A DNA stretch of 64,000 bases from positions 1 to 64,000 of the forward strand of contig JYOB01000009.1 in NCBI GenBank assembly GCA_000955795.1. The letters run 5' to 3'. Every line of letters starts with the position of its first letter. Positions within the stretch are counted from its first letter, which is position 1. The position numbers were made by a program, and so were the translations under genes. The notes under the pieces were generated by a model that saw nothing but the letters and a program-made list of their open reading frames with translations, searched no databases and had not been told where the DNA came from. This stretch comes from Burkholderiaceae bacterium 26 (GTDB lineage Bacteria; Pseudomonadota; Gammaproteobacteria; Burkholderiales; Burkholderiaceae). Below are positions 2,567 to 12,875 of the stretch, piece after piece.

Positions 2567-5500
2567 TTAAGGCAGCATGGCCGCTGTCGGATTGACGTCC
2601 GAATCGCGCGAGGGCGGCCGGCGATGACGGTGCGCCCACGTGAAGACCACCGGCAGCACCAGCAGCGTGAGAATCGTCGTGGTGACCATGCCGCCGACGA
2701 TCACCAGCGCCAGCGGGCGCTGCGCTTCCGAGCCGATGCTGTGCGACAGCGCCGCCGGCAACAAGCCCAGGCCCGCCAGCATGGCCGTCATGATCACAGG
2801 GCGCAGGCGCAGTGCGGCGCCGTCCACGGTGGCTTCGCGCACGTTTTCAGATTGCGCCAGACGATTGACGTACGAGATCAGGATCACCCCGTCCTGGATG
2901 GCGATGCCGAACAACGACAGGAAGCCAATCCCCGCTGAAATTGATAGCGTTTCGTGCGCGATATGCAGCGCCAGCAGCCCCCCGATGGCGGCAAACGGCA
3001 CATTCAGCACCACCATCAGCGCATCCTTGAAGTTGCCGAACGTGCTGTACAGCAGCAGGAAGATCACGAGAATCGTCAACGGCACGATCACCATCAGCTT
3101 GCTCTGGGCGACCTTCATCTCGTTGAACTGGCCATCCCACTTGACGGTGTAGCCCTCGGGCAACTGCACGCCGTCGCCCACCAGGCGCTGTGCTTCGTCC
3201 ACGGCGCTGCCCAAGTCACGGCCGCGCACGCCGAACTTGATGGCGATGTAGCGCTTGCCGAGTTCGCGGTAGATGAAGAACGGGCCGTCGGTCATTTCCA
3301 CCTTGGCGATCATCGACAGCGGGATGTGCTGGCCATCGGGTGTATCGATCAGCAGTTCGCGGATGGCGTCGTACGACGCACGTGCTTGCTGGTTCAATCG
3401 CACCGCCAGGCCGAACGATTTTTCGCCCTCCAGGATTTGCGTGACCGGCGCCCCGCCAATGGCGTACTGCACGAGGTTCTGCACGTCGCTCACGTTGATG
3501 TTGAAGCGCGCAGCGGCCTGGCGGTCGATGGAAACGTTCAGCGTCGGCTGGCCCAGTTCGCGGAAGATGCCAACGTCCACCAGCCCTGGCACCTTCTTGA
3601 GTTGCGCCTGGATTTCATTGGCCTTGGCTTCGAGCACATTCAGGTCGTTGCCGAACAGCTTGACCGAGTTTTCGCCCTTCACGCCCGAGAGTGCTTCATC
3701 CACGTTGTCCTGGATGTATTGCGAGAAGTTGTATTCGATGCCCGGAATCTTCTCCAGCCGCTTGGACAGGCGCTCGACAAGCTTCGCCTTCGTCATACCG
3801 GCAGGCCATTGGTCAGGCGGCGCGAAGTACAGACCGTATTCCTGGTTGAACACGCCGGTGGAATCGGTGCCGTCATCGGGGCGGCCGATCTGCACCGAAA
3901 CCTGGTTGATCTCCGGCTGCTTGACGAAGTACGCGCGCAGGTCGTTGGCCACTGACGACGAGTAGTCCAGGTCGACCGTGTTGGGCAACGTAATGCGCAG
4001 CCACAGGTTGTTTTCTTCCAGCGTCGGGAGGAACTCCGTACCGAGGAACGTGGCGCTGTACAGCGTCAGAACGAGCGCTGTGATGGCGGTAGCAAAGACC
4101 GCCATCGGGCGTGCAATCAGCTTGCGCAGCAGCGGCTTATACCAGCGCAGAATCGCCGTAATAAACGCCGGCGAATGCGGATGCAGCGTCTTGCCGAACA
4201 CGAACGACGTGGTGGCCGGCACGAACGTCAGGCTTAGCACGATCGACGCCATCAGCGCAAAGCCCATCGTGAACGCCATCGGCTTGAAGATGATGCCTTC
4301 CACGCCGCCGATGAAGAACAGCGGCGAATACGCCACGATGATGATGCCCGTGGAGAAAATCATCGCGCGCTGCACTTCGCTGGTGGCCTTGACGATGGCA
4401 TCGTCGAGTTTCTCGGCACCTTCTTCAAGATGCCGCATGATGTTTTCCATCACGATCACGGCCGCGTCGACAATCACCCCAAAGTCGATCGCCCCAAGCG
4501 AGATCAAATTGGCCGGCACATGGAAGTGCTCCATGCTGATGAACGACACGCACAGCGCCAGCGGAATCACCGCCGCCACCACAGCCGCCGCACGGAAATT
4601 GCCCAGGAAGACGAACAACACCGCCAGCACCAGCGAGATGCCCACCACCAGCGTGTGTTCAACCGTGCCCATGGTGATGTCGAGCAGCACCTGGCGGTCG
4701 TAGAACGGCTTGATCTGAACGCTCTTGGGCAGGATGCCGTTGTTCAGCTCCGTTACCTTTTCGCGCACCTTGGCCAGCACCTCGCTGGCGTTGGCGTCGC
4801 GCTTGAGCAGCACGATGCCTTCCACCACGTCGGGCTGATCGTTGTATTGCACTTGGCCCAGACGCTGCACGTTGCCGACTTCCACCTCGGCAATATCGCG
4901 CACGCGCACCGGCACGCCGTTGTTGGCGACTACCACCACGTTGCGGATGTCATCTACCGTTTGCAGCAGGCCCACGCCGCGCACGACGAACTGTTGCTCG
5001 CCGTCGCGCAACAGGTTGCCGCCGGTGTTGTTGTTGGCGTTGCCGATGGCCGTGATGAGCTGCGACAGCGTGATGCCGTACGACTGCAGCTTCGCCGGCG
5101 ACGGCACGATGTGATACTCCTTCACCTTGCCGCCGAAGGAACTGACATCGGCCACGCCCTGCACGTGCTTCAGCTCTTTGGTGATGTCGTAGTCCTGATA
5201 GCTCTTGAGCGTGGTGAGGTCTACGCCGTCGCCCACGAGGCGAAAGCGCATGATCTCGCCCGTTGCATCCGAGTCCGGGCTCAGCGACGGCTGCACACCG
5301 GTCGGCAGATTGGCTGCCGCCACATATTGCGAGAAGTTCTGCCGCGCCTTGAAGCTGTCGGTGCCTTCCTTGAACTTGAGCGTCACCACCGACAGCCCGA
5401 ACAGCGATACCGAGCGGAACGACTGCACATCAGGCACGCCGGCCAGCGCGTTTTCAATCGGGATGGTGATCTGCTGTTCGAGTTCGGTCGTGCTGCGGCC

Positions 5501-5662
5501 CGGCCATTGCGTGATGGCCTGCACCGACAACGGCGCCACGCCCGGATACGCCTGCAGCGGCAGCTCGCGGAACGCCAACACGCCCGCCACCAGCAGCGCG
5601 ATCGCCAGGAAAACAATCAGCAGCCGCCGCTTGAGAATGCCCGCGATGGGGTTGAAGCCCAT
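2567..5662 (-). CDS. czcA: CzcA/CusA-type heavy-metal RND efflux pump
   Basis: The 1031-residue protein is the inner-membrane proton-driven pump of a tripartite heavy-metal exporter (HME-RND). It has a first TM at residues 13-31, two large periplasmic loops and two blocks of five to six TM segments. The TM4 proton-relay signature GAIDFGVIVDAAVIVMEN places Asp393, Asp399 and Glu406 at the spacing of the essential Asp402/Asp408/Glu415 of CzcA. The pattern is of the divalent-cation (Zn/Co/Cd/Ni) class, but metal choice is not certain. It starts 2 bases after the membrane-fusion gene stop and is the last gene of a C-B-A operon. Length is typical of the family. Confidence 0.93.
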   Translation of the reverse strand: MGFNPIAGILKRRLLIVFLAIALLVAGVLAFRELPLQAYPGVAPLSVQAITQWPGRSTTELEQQITIPIENALAGVPDVQSFRSVSLFGLSVVTLKFKEGTDSFKARQNFSQYVAAANLPTGVQPSLSPDSDATGEIMRFRLVGDGVDLTTLKSYQDYDITKELKHVQGVADVSSFGGKVKEYHIVPSPAKLQSYGITLSQLITAIGNANNNTGGNLLRDGEQQFVVRGVGLLQTVDDIRNVVVVANNGVPVRVRDIAEVEVGNVQRLGQVQYNDQPDVVEGIVLLKRDANASEVLAKVREKVTELNNGILPKSVQIKPFYDRQVLLDITMGTVEHTLVVGISLVLAVLFVFLGNFRAAAVVAAVIPLALCVSFISMEHFHVPANLISLGAIDFGVIVDAAVIVMENIMRHLEEGAEKLDDAIVKATSEVQRAMIFSTGIIIVAYSPLFFIGGVEGIIFKPMAFTMGFALMASIVLSLTFVPATTSFVFGKTLHPHSPAFITAILRWYKPLLRKLIARPMAVFATAITALVLTLYSATFLGTEFLPTLEENNLWLRITLPNTVDLDYSSSVANDLRAYFVKQPEINQVSVQIGRPDDGTDSTGVFNQEYGLYFAPPDQWPAGMTKAKLVERLSKRLEKIPGIEYNFSQYIQDNVDEALSGVKGENSVKLFGNDLNVLEAKANEIQAQLKKVPGLVDVGIFRELGQPTLNVSIDRQAAARFNINVSDVQNLVQYAIGGAPVTQILEGEKSFGLAVRLNQQARASYDAIRELLIDTPDGQHIPLSMIAKVEMTDGPFFIYRELGKRYIAIKFGVRGRDLGSAVDEAQRLVGDGVQLPEGYTVKWDGQFNEMKVAQSKLMVIVPLTILVIFLLLYSTFGNFKDALMVVLNVPFAAIGGLLALHIAHETLSISAGIGFLSLFGIAIQDGVILISYVNRLAQSENVREATVDGAALRLRPVIMTAMLAGLGLLPAALSHSIGSEAQRPLALVIVGGMVTTTILTLLVLPVVFTWAHRHRRPPSRDSDVNPTAAMLP

Positions 5663-5664
5663 GC

Positions 5665-6810
5665 CTACGCCCCCGCCTTGACGATCATCTCGTTGAGCAG
5701 CGCGGCGCCGCGCACGACCACCTGCGACGAAGCCTCAAGCCCGGCCGTCACGGCAAAGTTGCCGTCGGTGCCGGTGTCCTTGCCTTGCACTTCCACGCGC
5801 TTGAAGTGCGTGGCATCGCTCTGCACGATCACGTAGTAGCTGCCGTGATCTTTCACCAGGGCGGCCTTCGGCACCACCGTGGCTTGGCCGCTGCCGGTCT
5901 GGATGCGCGCCGTGGCGTACATCTCGGGGCGCAGCAGGCCATCGGTGTTGGGCACGTCGCAGCGCACTGTCAAGGTGTGCGTTGCCGGGTCGATGTTCGG
6001 GGCGATGAAGCTCACACGGCCGGTGAACTCGCGGTCCGGATACGCCGACGTATGCAGCGAGATCGGCTGGCCGATGCGCACGCTGGCAATGTCGTTTTCA
6101 TAGACATTGCCTGTGAACCACAGCACACGCGTATCGACGATGCTCATGAACGAGTCACCCACGTTCAGGAAGGCGCCCGGGTCCATGTTGCGCTTGACGA
6201 TCGTGCCCGAGATGGGCGCGCGCAGCGTCAGGTGTTCAGCCGGCGTGCCGCGCTTGGCAATCTGCGCCACATCGGCATCGGACATGCCCAGCACGTGCAG
6301 GCGGCCCGCGGCGGACTGCACGGTGGCATCCGCGTCGTCCTGCAGATCCTTCATGTTGGAACCCTTGAGCTGGCGGGCGGTATTCAGCGCCAGCAAGTAT
6401 TCCTTCTGCGCGGAAATGAAGTCTGGCGAGTAGAGCTGCGCAATCGGTTGGCCCTCGCGCACCAGCGCACCTTCGAACAGGAGAATCTGGTCCAGTCGGC
6501 CAGCCACGCGCGCCGATGCCAGCTTGGTGCGCTCGGCGTTATAGGCGAGCTTGCCGGGCGTGGAGAGCTCCACCGGCACTGAAAGCTGACTGACCTGCGC
6601 AACCTTCACCTGCTGCGGGTCGAAGCCGCCGGCCGGAATTTCCACGGAATCCGGCTTCGCGCGCGGCGCGGCTGCAGGAGCGGATGCGGGGGCAGCGGGC
6701 TTTGCGGTCTCGGCCGGTGAAGCGGCGGGCCATTTGCGTCCGACCACCACACCAACAGCCAGGGCTGCGGCCAAGGCGATGACTGCAACAACGGGAGAGA
6801 ACTTCTTCAT
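5665..6810 (-). CDS. czcB: CzcB-type periplasmic membrane-fusion protein
   Basis: This 381-residue adaptor links the RND pump to the outer-membrane channel. It has an N-terminal membrane anchor (residues 5-25), an Ala/Pro-rich linker, then the barrel-sandwich/lipoyl halves (the stretch around LRAPISGTIVKRN is typical) and a beta-barrel near the C terminus. It lacks the His-rich metal-binding N-terminal extension found in plasmid-borne CzcB. It sits between the channel gene (4-base gap) and the pump gene (2-base gap), so translation is probably coupled. Confidence 0.9.
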   Translation of the reverse strand: MKKFSPVVAVIALAAALAVGVVVGRKWPAASPAETAKPAAPASAPAAAPRAKPDSVEIPAGGFDPQQVKVAQVSQLSVPVELSTPGKLAYNAERTKLASARVAGRLDQILLFEGALVREGQPIAQLYSPDFISAQKEYLLALNTARQLKGSNMKDLQDDADATVQSAAGRLHVLGMSDADVAQIAKRGTPAEHLTLRAPISGTIVKRNMDPGAFLNVGDSFMSIVDTRVLWFTGNVYENDIASVRIGQPISLHTSAYPDREFTGRVSFIAPNIDPATHTLTVRCDVPNTDGLLRPEMYATARIQTGSGQATVVPKAALVKDHGSYYVIVQSDATHFKRVEVQGKDTGTDGNFAVTAGLEASSQVVVRGAALLNEMIVKAGA

Positions 6811-6814
6811 GATG

Positions 6815-8185
6815 TTATTGAGCTTGAACCGGCGAGCGACCCGTGGCCGCGAGCAGCGCGTGATAGGCCTGCAAGGCTGTGGCCTGAGCCTGGGCGACCG
6901 ACAGTTCGGCGTTCCTGAGCGCGCCCTGGGCGGTGAGCAGGTCGTTGAAATCAGCGTTGTTGCTGGCGTAGTTGGTCATCGTCACGCGATAAGCCGCCAG
7001 CGCCTGCGGCAGTTGCCGCTGCTTGTTGAAGTCGAGCTGGGCAAGCGTCTGGCGCAGCGTGTTGTAGGCGGTATCAACGGCCAATAGCGTCTGCTGGCGC
7101 ACCGACACGTCATTCGCCTCGGTGGCAATCTGGCTTTCCACCGCCTGGTTCACGCCGTACTTTTCTTTGGTCAGGAACCAGAACGGAATGATCACGTCCA
7201 GCTCGATCTGGTAGCTGTTCGGGCGCACGCCATACGGCGGGTTGTCCGTCGTGACGGTGGCGATGACCTGGAAGTCGGGCAGGTAGGCCTTGCGAGCGAG
7301 CGTCACGCTCTTGCGTGCGGCGTCCATCAAGTCTGCCGACGCCTTGATCGACGGGTGCTCGCGCAGCGCCTGGTTTTCCAGCTCGGGTAGCGGTTCCTCC
7401 GGCAGGTGCACGGACTCGTCGTCGGCGCGCAGCACGAGCGGGAAGCTCGGCTCCTTGCCGATGAGCGTATTGAGGGTCTGCAGCGTGCTGTCGTACTGAC
7501 GCTGCGCGGCAAACAGGTCGTTCTGCGCGCTGCTTTGCATGACCTGCGCGTTGAGGAAGTCGGCGTACGCAGCGGCGTTGTTGGCGTAGCGCACACGCGT
7601 GATCTGCTTGACCTGCTCCAGGCGCGTGATGGCCAGCTTTTGGACATCGATCTGCTTCTGCAGCGCGATCGCCTGGTAATACGTGGTGGAAAGCTGCGCG
7701 TAGAGCTGCAGGTACAGCGCGTCGTTTTGCGCGTTCAGCGATTCCGCCTGGCGATCAGCAATCTCGGCCGCCAGCGCCTTCTTGCCCGGAAACGGGATCT
7801 GCTGCGTCAGGTTGTACTGGCTGCCGCCCGCGCGGTTGACAGCCAGCGGAAAACCCTTGGGGATGCTGTTCCAGATGTAGCCGAGCTGCGGGTTGTTGGG
7901 CGCGGCAAGTTGCGGAGGGATCGACTTGGCCGACAGGTAGTTATGGCGCGCCTGGATCAACTGCGGGTTGTTGCCCTTCAGTTCTTGCAGCAGCTCGACC
8001 AAGTTGAACCCGGCGCCCGTCACGCCCGGCACGGAAGGCTTGATCGGCGGCATGGTCGCCACCGGCATGCTGGCCGCAGCCGGCGCCGGTGCTGGCGTGG
8101 CTGCCCAGGCAGCGGCAAATGGCAGGCAGGCCACCGCGCACAGCACGGCCCTTGCCCGTGGATGGAACGCACCCCGATGTTTCAC
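6815..8185 (-). CDS. czcC: CzcC-type outer-membrane efflux channel (TolC family)
   Basis: The 456-residue protein has a signal peptide (residues 1-28, ending near AWAATPAP), a Pro/Ala-rich linker and the two long helical repeats of the outer-membrane factor family (for example the stretch LRQTLAQLDFNKQRQLP in the second repeat). It forms the exit duct for the CzcBA-like pump and is the first gene of the operon. The region from its start to the merR stop (8186-8341) must hold the operon promoter unless it is read from merR. No clear metal-regulator site was recognised there. Confidence 0.88.
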   Translation of the reverse strand: MKHRGAFHPRARAVLCAVACLPFAAAWAATPAPAPAAASMPVATMPPIKPSVPGVTGAGFNLVELLQELKGNNPQLIQARHNYLSAKSIPPQLAAPNNPQLGYIWNSIPKGFPLAVNRAGGSQYNLTQQIPFPGKKALAAEIADRQAESLNAQNDALYLQLYAQLSTTYYQAIALQKQIDVQKLAITRLEQVKQITRVRYANNAAAYADFLNAQVMQSSAQNDLFAAQRQYDSTLQTLNTLIGKEPSFPLVLRADDESVHLPEEPLPELENQALREHPSIKASADLMDAARKSVTLARKAYLPDFQVIATVTTDNPPYGVRPNSYQIELDVIIPFWFLTKEKYGVNQAVESQIATEANDVSVRQQTLLAVDTAYNTLRQTLAQLDFNKQRQLPQALAAYRVTMTNYASNNADFNDLLTAQGALRNAELSVAQAQATALQAYHALLAATGRSPVQAQ

Positions 8186-8341: not shown

Positions 8342-8737
8342 TCAGGTCGGTGCAAGCGGGCATGGCATCCCGACGCGGGCAGCGAGTGCATCACGCGTGG
8401 CCTGCAAGCTGGCGATGCGCACATCGATGGCGGTAAGTTTCTCCCGCAGTAGCGCCGTAATGGCGGCATCGATGTCGGGTTGCTGCCACACCTGCGCCAT
8501 CCCTTCGCCAATTTCTGCCAGCGTGAAGCCCAGTTGCTGAGCCGTGCGCACGTAGTTCACGAGTTCCACGGTTTCGGGCGGGTAGGCGCGGTAGCCGTTA
8601 CTGCGGCGTCGAGCTCGGATCAGGCCTCGTGCTTCGTAAAAGCGCAGGCCGTCCCGCGAGACGCCAGTGGCGGCGGCCAGATCGCCGATGGAAAGGTCGC
8701 CGGTACGTGCATTGGAAGCGAGCAGGGCAACAGACAT
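8342..8737 (-). CDS. MerR-family transcriptional regulator
   Basis: The 131-residue regulator has the winged helix-turn-helix typical of MerR proteins (IGDLAAATGVSRDGLRFYEARGLI at residues 17-40), a second Arg/Tyr-rich wing and a C-terminal dimerisation helix. Only one Cys is present, near the C terminus (GMPCPL), so the paired cysteines of CueR/ZntR-type metal sensors are absent and the effector is unknown. It faces the membrane-protein gene at 8835 across a short region with a MerR-style promoter. It lies upstream of, and codirectional with, the czc operon, which it might also influence. Confidence 0.88.
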   Translation of the reverse strand: MSVALLASNARTGDLSIGDLAAATGVSRDGLRFYEARGLIRARRRSNGYRAYPPETVELVNYVRTAQQLGFTLAEIGEGMAQVWQQPDIDAAITALLREKLTAIDVRIASLQATRDALAARVGMPCPLAPT

Positions 8738-8800: not shown

Positions 8801-8834
8801 GGCGACTCCTTCACTTCATTCCTGGAGTTTCACC

Positions 8835-9257
8835 ATGGTTTCTGAATCGACCTTCCTGCGTGTGGTGCGGGCCAGCGGCTGGTATGACCTGATCGTGACT
8901 GCACCGTTTGCCACGCCGTGGACGTTTGCCCTCTTGCATCAAGCGCTCACCGCATTGGCGCATGCGCTGGGTATCGGCAGCTTGCCGGCATTTGAGCCAG
9001 AGCACCTGTTGATGGCCAATCTGATGGGGTCGGTGGTGTGCGTGTGGTCGGTGTTGCGTATCCGACAGCCGAGTGTGGCGCTGGGCCGGTACGACGCCGT
9101 GGCGCGCGGCCTCTTTGCGGCGTGGCTGGCCTATGCGCTGGCATCGGGTGCCACGCTGCTGGTGTTGCCGTTCCTGATTGTGGAGATCGGCTTCGGCCTG
9201 CTGCAATCGGTGCCCGTGGGCCGCTTGCCAGGGCGGACGGGCGCGCAGGCAACTTAA
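8835..9257 (+). CDS. Unknown four-helix membrane protein under MerR-type promoter
   Basis: This protein of about 140 residues has four predicted hydrophobic segments, at roughly residues 15-45, 60-75, 88-108 and 110-125, and no motif I recognise. The ATG at 8835 is chosen because it follows the MerR-type promoter closely; an upstream in-frame ATG lies before the promoter. It stands alone between the regulator and a convergent lipoprotein gene. The arrangement suggests it is the main target of the MerR regulator, possibly a small transporter or membrane stress protein. No function is assigned. Confidence 0.75.
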   Translation: MVSESTFLRVVRASGWYDLIVTAPFATPWTFALLHQALTALAHALGIGSLPAFEPEHLLMANLMGSVVCVWSVLRIRQPSVALGRYDAVARGLFAAWLAYALASGATLLVLPFLIVEIGFGLLQSVPVGRLPGRTGAQAT

Positions 9258-9748: not shown

Positions 9749-10219
9749 TTAACGCGTGCGGCGCTCCCAAAGGGTCTGCGCCGCCAGCCAACCCGGTCCC
9801 ACCGTCGCCACCAGCGCTATCAGCACACCCCACACAAAATGAAACTCGATGGCCGATGCGGACAGATTGGCCCAGTAGGATACCGCCGCCACGACGTTGA
9901 CGAAGAACAGCCCTGCTGCTGCAAGCCGCGGCACGATGCCGGCCAGCATGAGAGACGGGAAGACCAGTTCGCCAAACGTGCCAAGCGCGGCTGCCAGGGC
10001 GGGCGGCAACAGCGGCACCTTGTATTCCTCGGTGAAGAGCAGCACGGTCGTGTCCCAGTCGTGCAGCTTGGTCAGGCCCGAGCGGAAGAACACGTAGAAC
10101 AGATATGCCCGCGCGATCAACAGGATGAGCGAGCAGAGCGCGCTTTGCGGCCCGGCGAGTCGGTCAAGCGAAGCGCGGATGCGTGTGAGTGGGGCAAAGG
10201 TCGTGGCGAGGGTGTTCAT
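9749..10219 (-). CDS. DoxX-family membrane protein of the bufferin/gig-type operon
   Basis: This 156-residue integral membrane protein is of the DoxX/SURF4-like family, with four TM segments and the family motif FFRSGLTKLHDWD near residues 44-56. Start 10219 (MNTLATTF) is chosen because it overlaps the bufC stop as ATGA, implying coupled translation; the longer reading frame upstream is inside bufC. In Cupriavidus gold-induced (gig) and in bufferin gene clusters a DoxX protein is the usual last member. Its role there is not settled; a membrane redox or anchoring role has been proposed for the family. Confidence 0.85.
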   Translation of the reverse strand: MNTLATTFAPLTRIRASLDRLAGPQSALCSLILLIARAYLFYVFFRSGLTKLHDWDTTVLLFTEEYKVPLLPPALAAALGTFGELVFPSLMLAGIVPRLAAAGLFFVNVVAAVSYWANLSASAIEFHFVWGVLIALVATVGPGWLAAQTLWERRTR

Positions 10220-10974
10220 GGCGTGTCTCCAGTTGGCGGAGTTGTTGGGCATGCAGACAGTGCGAGCAGCCCCGAGCGATAGAGGCCAGACAGGCATGCG
10301 GTCAAATCAAGATTTGGCTGTTCGGCCAGCGTGGTTTCGAGTGCGGCTTGAAGCGACGGCGTAGCGTCGCAAGCTGCGAGGAACGTGGCTGTGGGGGCAT
10401 CAAGATCGAGCACGGCAACACGATGCCCGCGCACGGCAATCGCTGCGGCTTCGCCCACACCCAGGTCAATTTCGTTGAGCGCGACCGTTGCGTCGGGCTG
10501 ATGTGCGCGCCAGATTGAAACCACGGGCCACGGCGAAACCACCCACTGCGCCCCCTCGACCAACCCCGCGCGAAGCGTGTCTGCAGGTTGTGCGAACAGG
10601 TCGGCGTTGGCCGCTTCCACGTGGGCATCCGGCGCGTAATGCGCCCAGTGCACGCACCATTCCAGCCGCGCCACGTCAGCGAGATACGGCACGCTGTGCG
10701 CCAACGGAGATTGCGCAATGACATCCGGCAGCGCATTTCCATAGCGATGCAGATTCGGGGACGTAGACGCTTGCACGGCCAGCGTGTCGCGCACCAGCGC
10801 ATCAAAGCAGTCTTCACCGACGAGCGCGCGGCAGACGGGATACGCGCCCGCCAGCGCGTTGCGCAGAATGGCCAGACGCGCATTGCGGTAGATGGCAATA
10901 CCGCGCGCCTCTTCGTGGCTTGCAGGGTTGGTCAGAGCGCCGATAAGGTGCGCTTCCCAGTCAGGCAGTCGCAT
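10216..10974 (-). CDS. bufC: BufC-type partner protein (DUF2063)
   Basis: The roughly 252-residue DUF2063 protein has the typical N-terminal part ([20 protein letters not shown] around residues 26-45), helical and thought to dock on the DUF692 oxidase and bind the precursor peptide leader. The C-terminal half is more variable. Start 10974 overlaps the end of bufB by 14 bases, and the stop overlaps the doxX start. In the known family it acts as recognition partner for the multinuclear iron oxidase. Confidence is high for the family and moderate for the exact role. Confidence 0.88.
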
Positions 10975-11830
10975 GGCGTGGCTCCTGCATGGGTGCATTG
11001 GCGTGGCGGTCGAGCGTTGCTTGGGCGCGTGCAGCTTCGTCCAGCAACACCTGCACGGGCGGCAGCTCAGCATCCCATTCGATCAGCGTCGGGCGTGCGC
11101 CGTGCTTGGCAATCCACACGTCGTACAGCGCCCAGACGGGCGCATGGACCGGCGCACTATGCGTGTCGATCAGCATGCCGTCTTCCACGCTGAAACCAGC
11201 CAGGTGAATCTCGCTAACCAGCGCAGGGTCGATATCGGCAAGGACCGATTCGGCGGTCACGCCATGGTTGACGCTGTTCACGTACAGATTGTTCAGGTCC
11301 AGCAAGATGCCGCAGCCCGCACGCCGGGCGAGGGCGGTCAGGAATGCGCCTTCGGAGAGGGCTTCGTCGGCATCGACCAGCGCGCGGCAGTCGATGTACG
11401 CGGCGATGTTCTCGATCAGCAGCGGTCGCTTGAGGATGTCCTGCGCAAGCATGACGTTGGCGCAGACGACATCCAGCGATTCGCGGGAATAGGGTAGCGG
11501 CAGCAGGTCGTTGACGACCTGCGGACCGCTGCGGTTGAAGCACAGGTGCTCGGAAATGGCGGCGGGCGATACCGCATCGGCCAGCGTGGCGATGGCGCGT
11601 ACGTGGCCGACGTCCAGTCCATCCGCATTGCCTAGCCCCATGCCCACGCCGTGCAGGCTCACGGGCTGGTGCGCTCGCGCGGCCAGCAGCGCTGCGCAGG
11701 CGGGGCCGCCATACAGATAGTTCTCGCTGTGCACTTCCACCCAGGGGAAGCGAGCTTCCCCGCGCAACAGGGCGGGAAAGTGCGGTGCGCGCAGGCCTGC
11801 GCCGGCGCAGGTTGGCAGAGCGGTCTGCAT
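10961..11830 (-). CDS. bufB: BufB-type multinuclear non-heme iron oxidase (MNIO, DUF692)
   Basis: This 289-residue TIM-barrel enzyme of the DUF692/MNIO family modifies cysteines of a ribosomal precursor peptide using two or three iron ions. Metal-ligand motifs are visible in order: [46 protein letters not shown] and LIEWD. Start 11830 ([10 protein letters not shown]) lies 22 bases after the bufA stop. By analogy with bufferin enzymes it would convert Cys residues of BufA to oxidised heterocycles that chelate copper. The link from sequence to that chemistry is inference. Confidence 0.9.
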
Positions 11831-11852
11831 GGCGGTCACCCGGCGTCGCGCG

Positions 11853-12119
11853 TTACTTGGACGGGGCCTGCATCGTGCCGCCCATCTGCGCGCAGGTGCC
11901 GGCCGGCACGTACTTCCACGACATTGGGTCCTTGTCCATCTTCGATTGGCCGGCGCAGGCGTGGGCGCTGCCCGGGCTGGCGCAATCGTTCTGGCCGGCC
12001 TTGGCGACGCCGTAGCACTTTTCCTTGCCGGCGGCATCAGCGGCCTGCACCGGTGTCGACAGAGCGCCCAGCGCGAGCAGGCTACCCAGGGCGGCGGCGA
12101 TCATGGCGTGTTGTTTCAT
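11853..12119 (-). CDS. bufA: BufA-type precursor peptide (DUF2282), secreted Cys peptide
   Basis: The 88-residue DUF2282 peptide has a Sec signal peptide (residues 1-26, STPVQA before the likely cleavage site) and a core with four cysteines at 35, 46, 55 and 76, in the family pattern [13 protein letters not shown] ... SAHAC ... YVPAGTC. In bufferin systems this is the RiPP precursor whose cysteines are modified by BufB/BufC, giving a periplasmic copper chelator. In Cupriavidus the same family is the first gene of the gold-induced gig operon. A good ribosome site (AAGGAG) precedes the ATG. It is the first gene of the operon. Confidence 0.9.
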
Positions 12120-12292
12120 TTGTGTTCTCCTTGAGTGGCGGGTGTCATTGAACGGCGGACAGGGCCAAATCCCTCGCCGTACGGTGCACTGCGGCATCGC
12201 GCAGATGTGTTCCGTGCACCTTCGTCGGCGCACGCGGGCGTTCCTGACACGGAGAACAAAAATTTTTTGATTTTTTTTTGTGAGGCAATCCG
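12120..12292 (-). promoter_or_regulatory. Leader/promoter region of the buf operon
   Basis: The gap upstream of bufA holds two minus-strand GGAAC pentamers (plus-strand gttcc at 12209-12213 and 12240-12244) and two GTGCAC palindromes 30 bases apart (12184-12189, 12214-12219). GGAAC is a common -35 core of ECF-sigma promoters, and bufferin/gig operons elsewhere are ECF-controlled, but no ECF sigma gene is adjacent and no convincing -10 was recognised. A T-rich run (12258-12280) lies further upstream. Confidence 0.3.
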
Positions 12293-12323
12293 CCAATAAA
12301 AAAGGCGACCCCGATGGGTCGCC
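12293..12323 (-). terminator. Terminator of the basic-protein gene
   Basis: A perfect stem GGCGACCC/GGGTCGCC (12304-12311 with 12316-12323, loop CGAT) is followed on the minus strand by TTTTTTATT. It ends transcription of the Lys/Ala-rich protein gene and insulates the buf operon. Confidence 0.85.
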
Positions 12324-12344
12324 TTCCGGCTGAACAGGAAAGAT

Positions 12345-12875
12345 TTACCTGGCGTGCGCCGCGCGCGTGCGTGCCGCCTTCTTGGCGGCGGCGGATCGGC
12401 CGGCTGCGCCCTTGGTGGCAGCGCCCTTCTTGGCCGCCGCCGAGCGCTCACTGCTCGAACGCTTGGATGCCGCGCTGTGCGCCTGCTTGGACAGCGAGGA
12501 TTTGGAAGCCGCCGAATGCCCTTCCTTCTTCAGCGTGCGCGTTGTGGTTTTGCTGCGCTTGGCCGTGGATTCCTTGCTGGCACTGGCGTGGCTGCCAGTC
12601 TTGTTGCCTGCCTTGCTGCCGGCCTTGACGTCATGTTCCGCCTTCTTGCGTGTGGCGGCCGACGCTTTGCCTTCCCCCGGCGGCTTGACGGCAACGCCCG
12701 CGCGGCGTGCTTTCGATAGACCGATCGCAATGGCCTGCTTGGTGTTTTTCGCACCGTGCTTGCCTTCACGGATGTGATCCATCTCTTCCTTCACGAAGTT
12801 ACCCGCCTGGGTCGAGGCGGCCTTGCCGTGGCGCTTGTCGGCGCGCGCACGTTCTACGGTTTTGCGTTCCGGCAT
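12345..12875 (-). CDS. Lys/Ala/Ser-rich basic protein, histone H1-like tail
   Basis: The roughly 176-residue protein has a conserved-looking N-terminal half (KHGAKNTKQAIAIGLSKARRAG, residues 38-59), of the type found in DUF6496-like proteins. A low-complexity C-terminal half is rich in Lys, Ala and Ser (for example AAAKKGAATKGAAG), like bacterial histone H1 homologues. This composition suggests binding to DNA or RNA through charge. Start 12875 (MPERKTVERA) follows a ribosome-site-like AGGACG. The neighbour upstream is another nucleoid-type protein. No specific function is assigned. Confidence 0.7.
   Translation of the reverse strand: MPERKTVERARADKRHGKAASTQAGNFVKEEMDHIREGKHGAKNTKQAIAIGLSKARRAGVAVKPPGEGKASAATRKKAEHDVKAGSKAGNKTGSHASASKESTAKRSKTTTRTLKKEGHSAASKSSLSKQAHSAASKRSSSERSAAAKKGAATKGAAGRSAAAKKAARTRAAHAR

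Follow-up and report, generated by a model that had tools for sequence, protein, structure and literature searches.

We found that bufABC-doxX, a four-gene operon in the window (the whole 64,000-nucleotide stretch analyzed here, from Burkholderiaceae bacterium 26), is an ordinary, intact member of the Buf1 (DUF2282) bufferin family, and we consider it likely that this operon is wired into a thiol/methionine-oxidation stress regulon. The operon has conserved catalytic motifs, is conserved in the genus and shares a promoter element with msrA and msrB, and the host genome contains an ECF sigma factor paired with a zinc anti-sigma factor (ZAS). From the sequences, buf in Ralstonia appears to be switched on alongside the methionine-repair genes by a distant stress regulator, and not by the one proposed for the gig operon of Cupriavidus. 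This regulatory assignment seems well supported and, as far as the literature searched shows, is new: the search, in which most subscription papers were outside the scope, gave no report tying DUF2282 operons to methionine-sulphoxide repair.

The window contains an intact bufferin operon

The operon consists of four genes:

11853-12119, minus strand: bufA, 88 aa, DUF2282 precursor with a Sec signal and Cys 35, 46, 55 and 76
10961-11830, minus strand: bufB, 289 aa, MNIO (DUF692) enzyme
10216-10974, minus strand: bufC, 252 aa, DUF2063 partner protein
9749-10219, minus strand: doxX, 156 aa, membrane protein, last gene of the operon

A sequence-only reading of this DNA had described tightly linked genes with 14- and 4-base overlaps, and a four-Cys DUF2282 peptide. 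Coordinates and Pfam matches agree with both points: bufB and bufC overlap by 14 nt, bufC and doxX by 4 nt, and 22 nt separate bufA from bufB. The range it gave, 10216-12119, covers bufA, bufB and bufC but misses most of doxX, which reaches down to 9749. The bufA product matched DUF2282 (PF10048) at 86.9 bits (cut-off 22.4), and BufB (MbnB_TglH_ChrH, PF05114, 295.2 bits), BufC (DUF2063, 61.7 bits) and DoxX (53.6 bits) were also over their cut-offs. Scores were below the NCBIfam equivalog cut-offs, narrowly for BufB (309.2 vs 310) and also for BufA2 (31.6 vs 60), HvfC (45 vs 142) and HvfX (46.8 vs 80). The host genome has one MNIO match and one DUF2282 match. A search of PDB sequences with BufC gave no match.

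All four genes are intact and in the order A-B-C-X, as judged from the open reading frames and Pfam. This is the gene content of a Buf1 cluster, the core of which is described as bufferin, MNIO, DUF2063 and DoxX genes (PMC12452194; this and the other papers cited by number were available in part, and what we draw from them is limited to the available text). The order is also that of Caulobacter bufferin 1, with a signal-bearing four-Cys precursor followed by MNIO, DUF2063 partner and DoxX. However, the window operon has no linked sigma factor or NrsF, and its promoter element is of a different class.

The peptide and its predicted modification

Buf1 bufferins are DUF2282 peptides with four conserved Cys, of which the middle two are modified and the outer two disulphide-linked (PMC12452194). 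The four Cys of the window BufA are spaced 11, 9 and 21, downstream of a signal with a cleavage site predicted by eye after Ala26. This scaffold (spacing 11, 9 or 7, and 21) occurred in 96 DUF2282 peptides from 78 sequences, namely the window and 77 of 80 comparison loci; the search pattern already demanded four Cys and tolerated spacings of 10-14, 6-26 and 13-33.

BufB could be aligned with the MNIO of PDB 3BWW across the motif blocks, which bears out the earlier description of an enzyme with metal-ligand motifs. Exchange of three residues abolished activity of HvfB (PMC13419390). These residues would be N180, D222 and H224 in BufB, from the 3BWW alignment and a one-residue offset, with HvfB itself outside the alignment and the register taken from 3BWW. 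With the register likewise deduced, the counterpart of the proposed FonB catalytic base would be D253, and BufB would have Ala254 in place of the FonB specificity residue Phe250, which the available part of the FonB study gives as not conserved among DUF2282-linked enzymes (PMC12668002). Given the shared scaffold, the MNIO motif blocks and the active-site residue matches, thiooxazoles at Cys46 and Cys55 would be the expected product. The peptide is probably copper-binding. Characterized bufferins improve growth in copper via chelation (PMC12452194), and gonophorin binds copper (PMC12668002).

Distribution of the operon and phylogeny of BufB

The recurrence of the operon exceeds chance. In addition to the recurrent four-Cys scaffold, bufB was found in 15 of 16 same-genus genomes, and the sole miss was a genome 88% complete. 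Among 249 genomes of the family, bufB was present in 83 (including the 15 of the genus), with identity of at most 49% outside the genus. In a BufB tree of 100 rows, the Ralstonia enzymes fell inside a 61-row clade (support 99/94) that also holds enzymes from Chromobacteriaceae, Chitinimonas, and Gallionella- and Ferrovum-like bacteria. GigA of C. metallidurans was outside this clade; its partners in the tree were locus L079 and a second copy from one Ralstonia genome (L098). For this placement the tree program warned of a possible false joining of the long branches of GigA and L079; the Ralstonia stem is likewise long.

A predicted promoter element upstream of bufA

Two conserved features precede bufA:

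12220-12248, minus strand: predicted ECF promoter GTCAGGAAC-N12-CGACGAAG of bufABC-doxX, from the alignment and pattern counts
12258-12279, minus strand: A/T tract upstream of the -35-like box, an A-rich stretch kept in the window and nine loci

In the alignment, the window and these nine loci have in common an A/T-rich tract followed by CCGTRTCAGGAA-N13-CGACNAAG upstream of bufA. A related block in Chromobacteriaceae reads GTGTAAGAA-N14-CGAC. The placement of the tract is comparable to that of the UP element of neisserial promoters, and the window element resembles the sigma-E consensus of Neisseria (GTMAGBWTT, 12-13 nt, CGTCTAAH; PMC2893595) without being identical to it.

The full consensus, GTMAGBWTT-N12/13-CGTCTAAH, was present in none of 78 bufA upstream regions (from 78 of 81 sequences, window included; L020, L071 and L079 were unparsed). 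A shortened form (GTMAGNW, unchanged spacing, CGWC), picked after the data were seen, matched exactly in 43 of the 78 regions, 40 of them with a 12-nt spacer. In contrast, it matched in only 8 of 1560 letter-shuffled sets and 198 of 19997 random windows, and on these counts we reject a chance origin of the element. A looser pattern with up to three mismatches did not discriminate (334 matches vs 265 for the reversed control). With a stricter Chromobacteriaceae pattern, 13 of 25 genomes yielded 18 sites in total, mostly at buf.

A sigma-70 scan of 12100-12500 gave no site. Two further features were seen by eye and rejected. We do not claim a terminator between the upstream gene and bufA because the scan for one gave 0 sites, and an apparent RNA hairpin in the bufA leader was absent from the alignment rows of L006, L009 and L010. 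Two Aquitalea regions (G275:C139:94062-94225 and G282:C20:104560-104724) have paired elements 137-138 nt apart upstream of bufA copies, and the former has tandem bufA genes.

The element also precedes msrA and msrB

We found that the element is shared with methionine-repair genes. When 11 Ralstonia-clade genomes were scanned with the pattern, 56 matches were obtained, compared with 5 for the reversed pattern, and the matches were sorted manually. The exact element was upstream of bufA in 9 of the 11 genomes (one box is off by one base in L006 and L010), upstream of msrA in all 11 (with another gene intervening in 2) and upstream of msrB in all 11. Of the other matches, 11 fall within the ECF gene, 9 are at a coding-like site whose spacer is 15 nt, and five are elsewhere; two of these five represent a single site upstream of a DUF1223 gene. 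At the msrA and msrB sites the spacers differ among genomes while both boxes are fixed. MsrA and MsrB were named from characteristic motifs, and one example of each was confirmed by Pfam (PMSR and SelR).

Outside Ralstonia, the element was found at 5 of 24 MsrA loci, all from Aquitalea; the MsrA search covered 26 of the 80 loci, and the count used the 24 of 28 matches with a GCFWC motif. In two Ralstonia genomes (L251 and L252; L236 and L240) a putative class A beta-lactamase gene lies between the element and msrA.

At the level of the promoter element, there would thus be one regulon holding the msr genes and an MNIO operon. This resembles the systems of Neisseria sigma-E (Ecf) and Haemophilus RpoE2, which, in the available text, bring together a small ZAS, msr genes and an MNIO operon and have promoters of related form and spacing (PMC3240639, PMC7907618, PMC2893595, PMC2954202). 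There are also differences. Those MNIO operons encode EGKCG-type precursors, whereas that of the window is DUF2282; their -10 is CGTC, compared with CGAC in Ralstonia; and Ralstonia has msrA and msrB as two distinct genes, with an ECF that is not linked to buf. As far as the available part of the report goes (PMC2893595), neither rpoE nor msrAB transcripts of N. meningitidis rose upon exposure to peroxide, diamide or singlet oxygen, which speaks against an oxidant signal.

A candidate regulator in the host genome

The host genome encodes an ECF that matches PRK12520 (344.5 bits) and TIGR02943 (246 bits), on another contig and unlinked to buf. It is followed by a gene for a 70-aa ZAS (NF052368, 64.6 bits; zf-HC2, 31.8 bits), the motif of which, C-X25-H-X3-C-X2-C, fits the published C-X23-26-H-X3-C-X2-C. 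The likeness to the Neisseria sigma-E and RpoE2 type (ECF group 13) is drawn from the PRK12520, TIGR02943 and ZAS matches.

A search of 45 genomes, covering 45 of the 80 loci, detected the ECF in 37. The element was upstream of bufA in 32 of the 37 genomes with the ECF, in contrast to 1 of 7 scored genomes without it (Fisher 0.0004, uncorrected for relatedness). At L038 the element was present and no ECF was found. Within 320 nt upstream of the host ECF, no exact element was seen. The site inside the ECF coding sequence is conserved, and we draw no inference from it because it falls in codons of a conserved protein stretch.

Two classes of ECF near buf operons

Where an ECF is encoded within 10 kb of buf, its class goes with the element upstream. 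Of ten loci with a TIGR02943-type ECF, eight had GTMAG..CGAC and none had GTAACN-N16-CGAA. In contrast, of seven loci with a sigma-F-type ECF, six had GTAACN-N16-CGAA and none had GTMAG..CGAC. For GTMAG..CGAC the difference between classes gives a Fisher value of 0.002, uncorrected for relatedness. Two of the ten TIGR02943-linked loci are without an exact element. L080, which has neither element and an ECF just under the score limit, would change the count to 8 of 11, and the ECF of L021 is approximately 8.5 kb from bufA. Neither class includes the ECFs of L065 and L075, either ECF of L080 or one of two at L032. The ten linked ECFs are 41-47% identical to one ECF of the host genome, and the TIGR02943 cut-off was exceeded by the host ECF and the two linked ECFs scanned.

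GTAACC-N16-CGAA is the motif of Caulobacter sigma-F (PMC3511200). In Sinorhizobium, RpoE7 raised the expression of a DUF692 operon that has such a site; in the available account (PMC6180224), this operon showed no response to peroxide, cadmium or chromate, which again speaks against an oxidant signal. At L027, L032, L043 and L063 a short Cys-rich ORF with a single probable transmembrane segment precedes bufA near the linked ECF.

We tentatively suggest, at somewhat less than even confidence, that bufferin-type operons are served by two ECF/anti-sigma systems with their own promoter codes, both of which tie the peptide to methionine-sulphoxide repair. With similar reserve, the codes may be GTMAG..CGAC for a TIGR02943-type ECF with ZAS and GTAACC-N16-CGAA for a sigma-F type with NrsF. 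The repair genes could, just as tentatively, be MsrA and MsrB here and, in Caulobacter, YedY, which we take to be the methionine-sulphoxide reductase MsrP. Under Caulobacter sigma-F, two DUF2282 operons are grouped with YedY, which the available part of the sigF work terms a sulphite oxidase; against the repair reading, msrA homologs were unchanged in that work (PMC3511200). If two such systems exist, the thiooxazole peptide would be part of a general thiol/methionine oxidation response in which copper is one trigger. The two codes connect DUF2282 thiooxazole peptides with methionine-sulphoxide repair and indicate, for each genome, which sigma factor to test.

A model for the operon and alternative explanations

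We infer the following for the inducing signal, the sigma factor that reads the promoter, and the modification, export and metal binding of the peptide. Copper, gold or oxidant stress would disable the small cytoplasmic ZAS. Transcription of bufABCX, msrA and msrB by the freed, unlinked TIGR02943-type ECF would follow, from promoters reading GTCAGGA-N14-CGACNAA. The Sec signal of BufA would serve as its leader, and BufC would present the peptide to BufB, which would convert the central Cys46 and Cys55 to 5-thiooxazoles (-4 Da each). After export, the outer Cys35 and Cys76 would be disulphide-bonded, and the peptide would bind copper in the periplasm. For the predicted mature peptide, residues 27-88, the calculated monoisotopic mass is 6247.8 Da when reduced; it would fall to 6239.7 Da with two thiooxazoles and to 6237.7 Da once the disulphide is added, and the modified peptide would be expected to absorb near 305 nm. 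DoxX possibly has a redox role.

The shared regulation might also indicate that the peptide mainly protects envelope thiols and methionines together with msrA and msrB, and that copper induction is secondary. The promoter element common to bufA, msrA and msrB is consistent with this, as is H. influenzae RpoE2, which, in the available text, responds to HOCl and affects an MNIO/DoxX cluster. However, the copper chelation by characterized bufferins and the copper binding by gonophorin, cited above, argue against it, and we consider it unlikely.

A second alternative, implied by the sequence-only reading, is that the operon responds to copper and gold as gig does, through a periplasm-sensing ECF resembling sigma-F or RpoQ. 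The gene order and families match those of gigPABT of C. metallidurans CH34, with tblastn identities to the window of 48% for A (over 65 aa), 42% for B, 28% for C and 35% for DoxX. The gig operon is induced by copper and gold, and its deletion in the parent C. metallidurans strain left copper resistance unaffected, a result that weighs against our preferred model. The earlier description of the operon as gig-type thus stands at the level of families. We reject direct orthology, given the 42% identity between BufB and GigA and the position of GigA in another clade than the Ralstonia enzymes (with the long-branch warning noted above).

The regulation differs as well. gig adjoins rpoQ, whereas the window buf has no linked ECF, and no sigma-70 region 2 match was found in the window. 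The gap between gigP and rpoQ (L210 5144-5229, C. metallidurans chromid) contains an exact GTAACC-N16-CGAA on both strands, a candidate divergent promoter for gig and rpoQ. These sites are independent of the promoter rule, as gig was not among the loci used to derive it. The window element is of the other class. A search for the NrsF anti-sigma family, which covered 47 of the 80 loci, gave no match in the host genome and a match in only 1 of the 10 other Ralstonia-clade genomes, that of L005. There, the NrsF gene and an ECF are beside a second buf operon (L159 3643-7574) with the sigma-F element GTAACC-N16-CGAA at 5007. Control in the style of gig or sigma-F does not fit this NrsF result and promoter class, and we regard this explanation as very unlikely.

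Last, the operon could be part of the adjoining metal-efflux set, under its MerR protein:

8342-8737: MerR gene, 1.0 kb from doxX and 1.5 kb from bufC
2567-8185: RND genes

The sequence-only reading had pointed to a MerR regulator and a metal RND pump nearby; both are present, MerR at distances other than the 1.6 kb it gave. We compared ten Ralstonia-clade loci, of which nine carry the name Ralstonia and one is from a Burkholderiaceae MAG. RND genes come after buf in 10 of 10, with BON in 10 of 10 and MerR in 9 of 10 (one match partial). EamA, an unrelated neighbor, is kept in 9 of these 10, and in the nine next loci, L012-L020, RND, BON and MerR were near buf in 0 of 9. Because EamA is also conserved and the linkage is absent from L012-L020, we interpret it as genus-level synteny, which on its own does not speak for a metal island, and draw no functional evidence from it. 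Despite the conserved proximity, therefore, MerR and RND as functional partners are rejected, and control by this MerR protein is highly improbable, the bufA upstream element being ECF-promoter-like and common to relatives without this MerR.

At 8832-9257 (plus strand) the window encodes a 141-aa probable membrane protein with no Pfam match, which is present in 8 of the 10 Ralstonia-clade loci. One same-genus genome has a second MNIO cluster (L160 2897-10497, G010:C23), in which a 692-aa Ferritin-like (PF12902) protein is followed by MNIO and DUF2063. The word 'ferritin' is absent from the available part of PMC12452194. The Ferritin-like protein has a Cys-rich C-terminal part and is a candidate large MNIO substrate, and the cluster adjoins a CusF-domain ORF and an RND pump.
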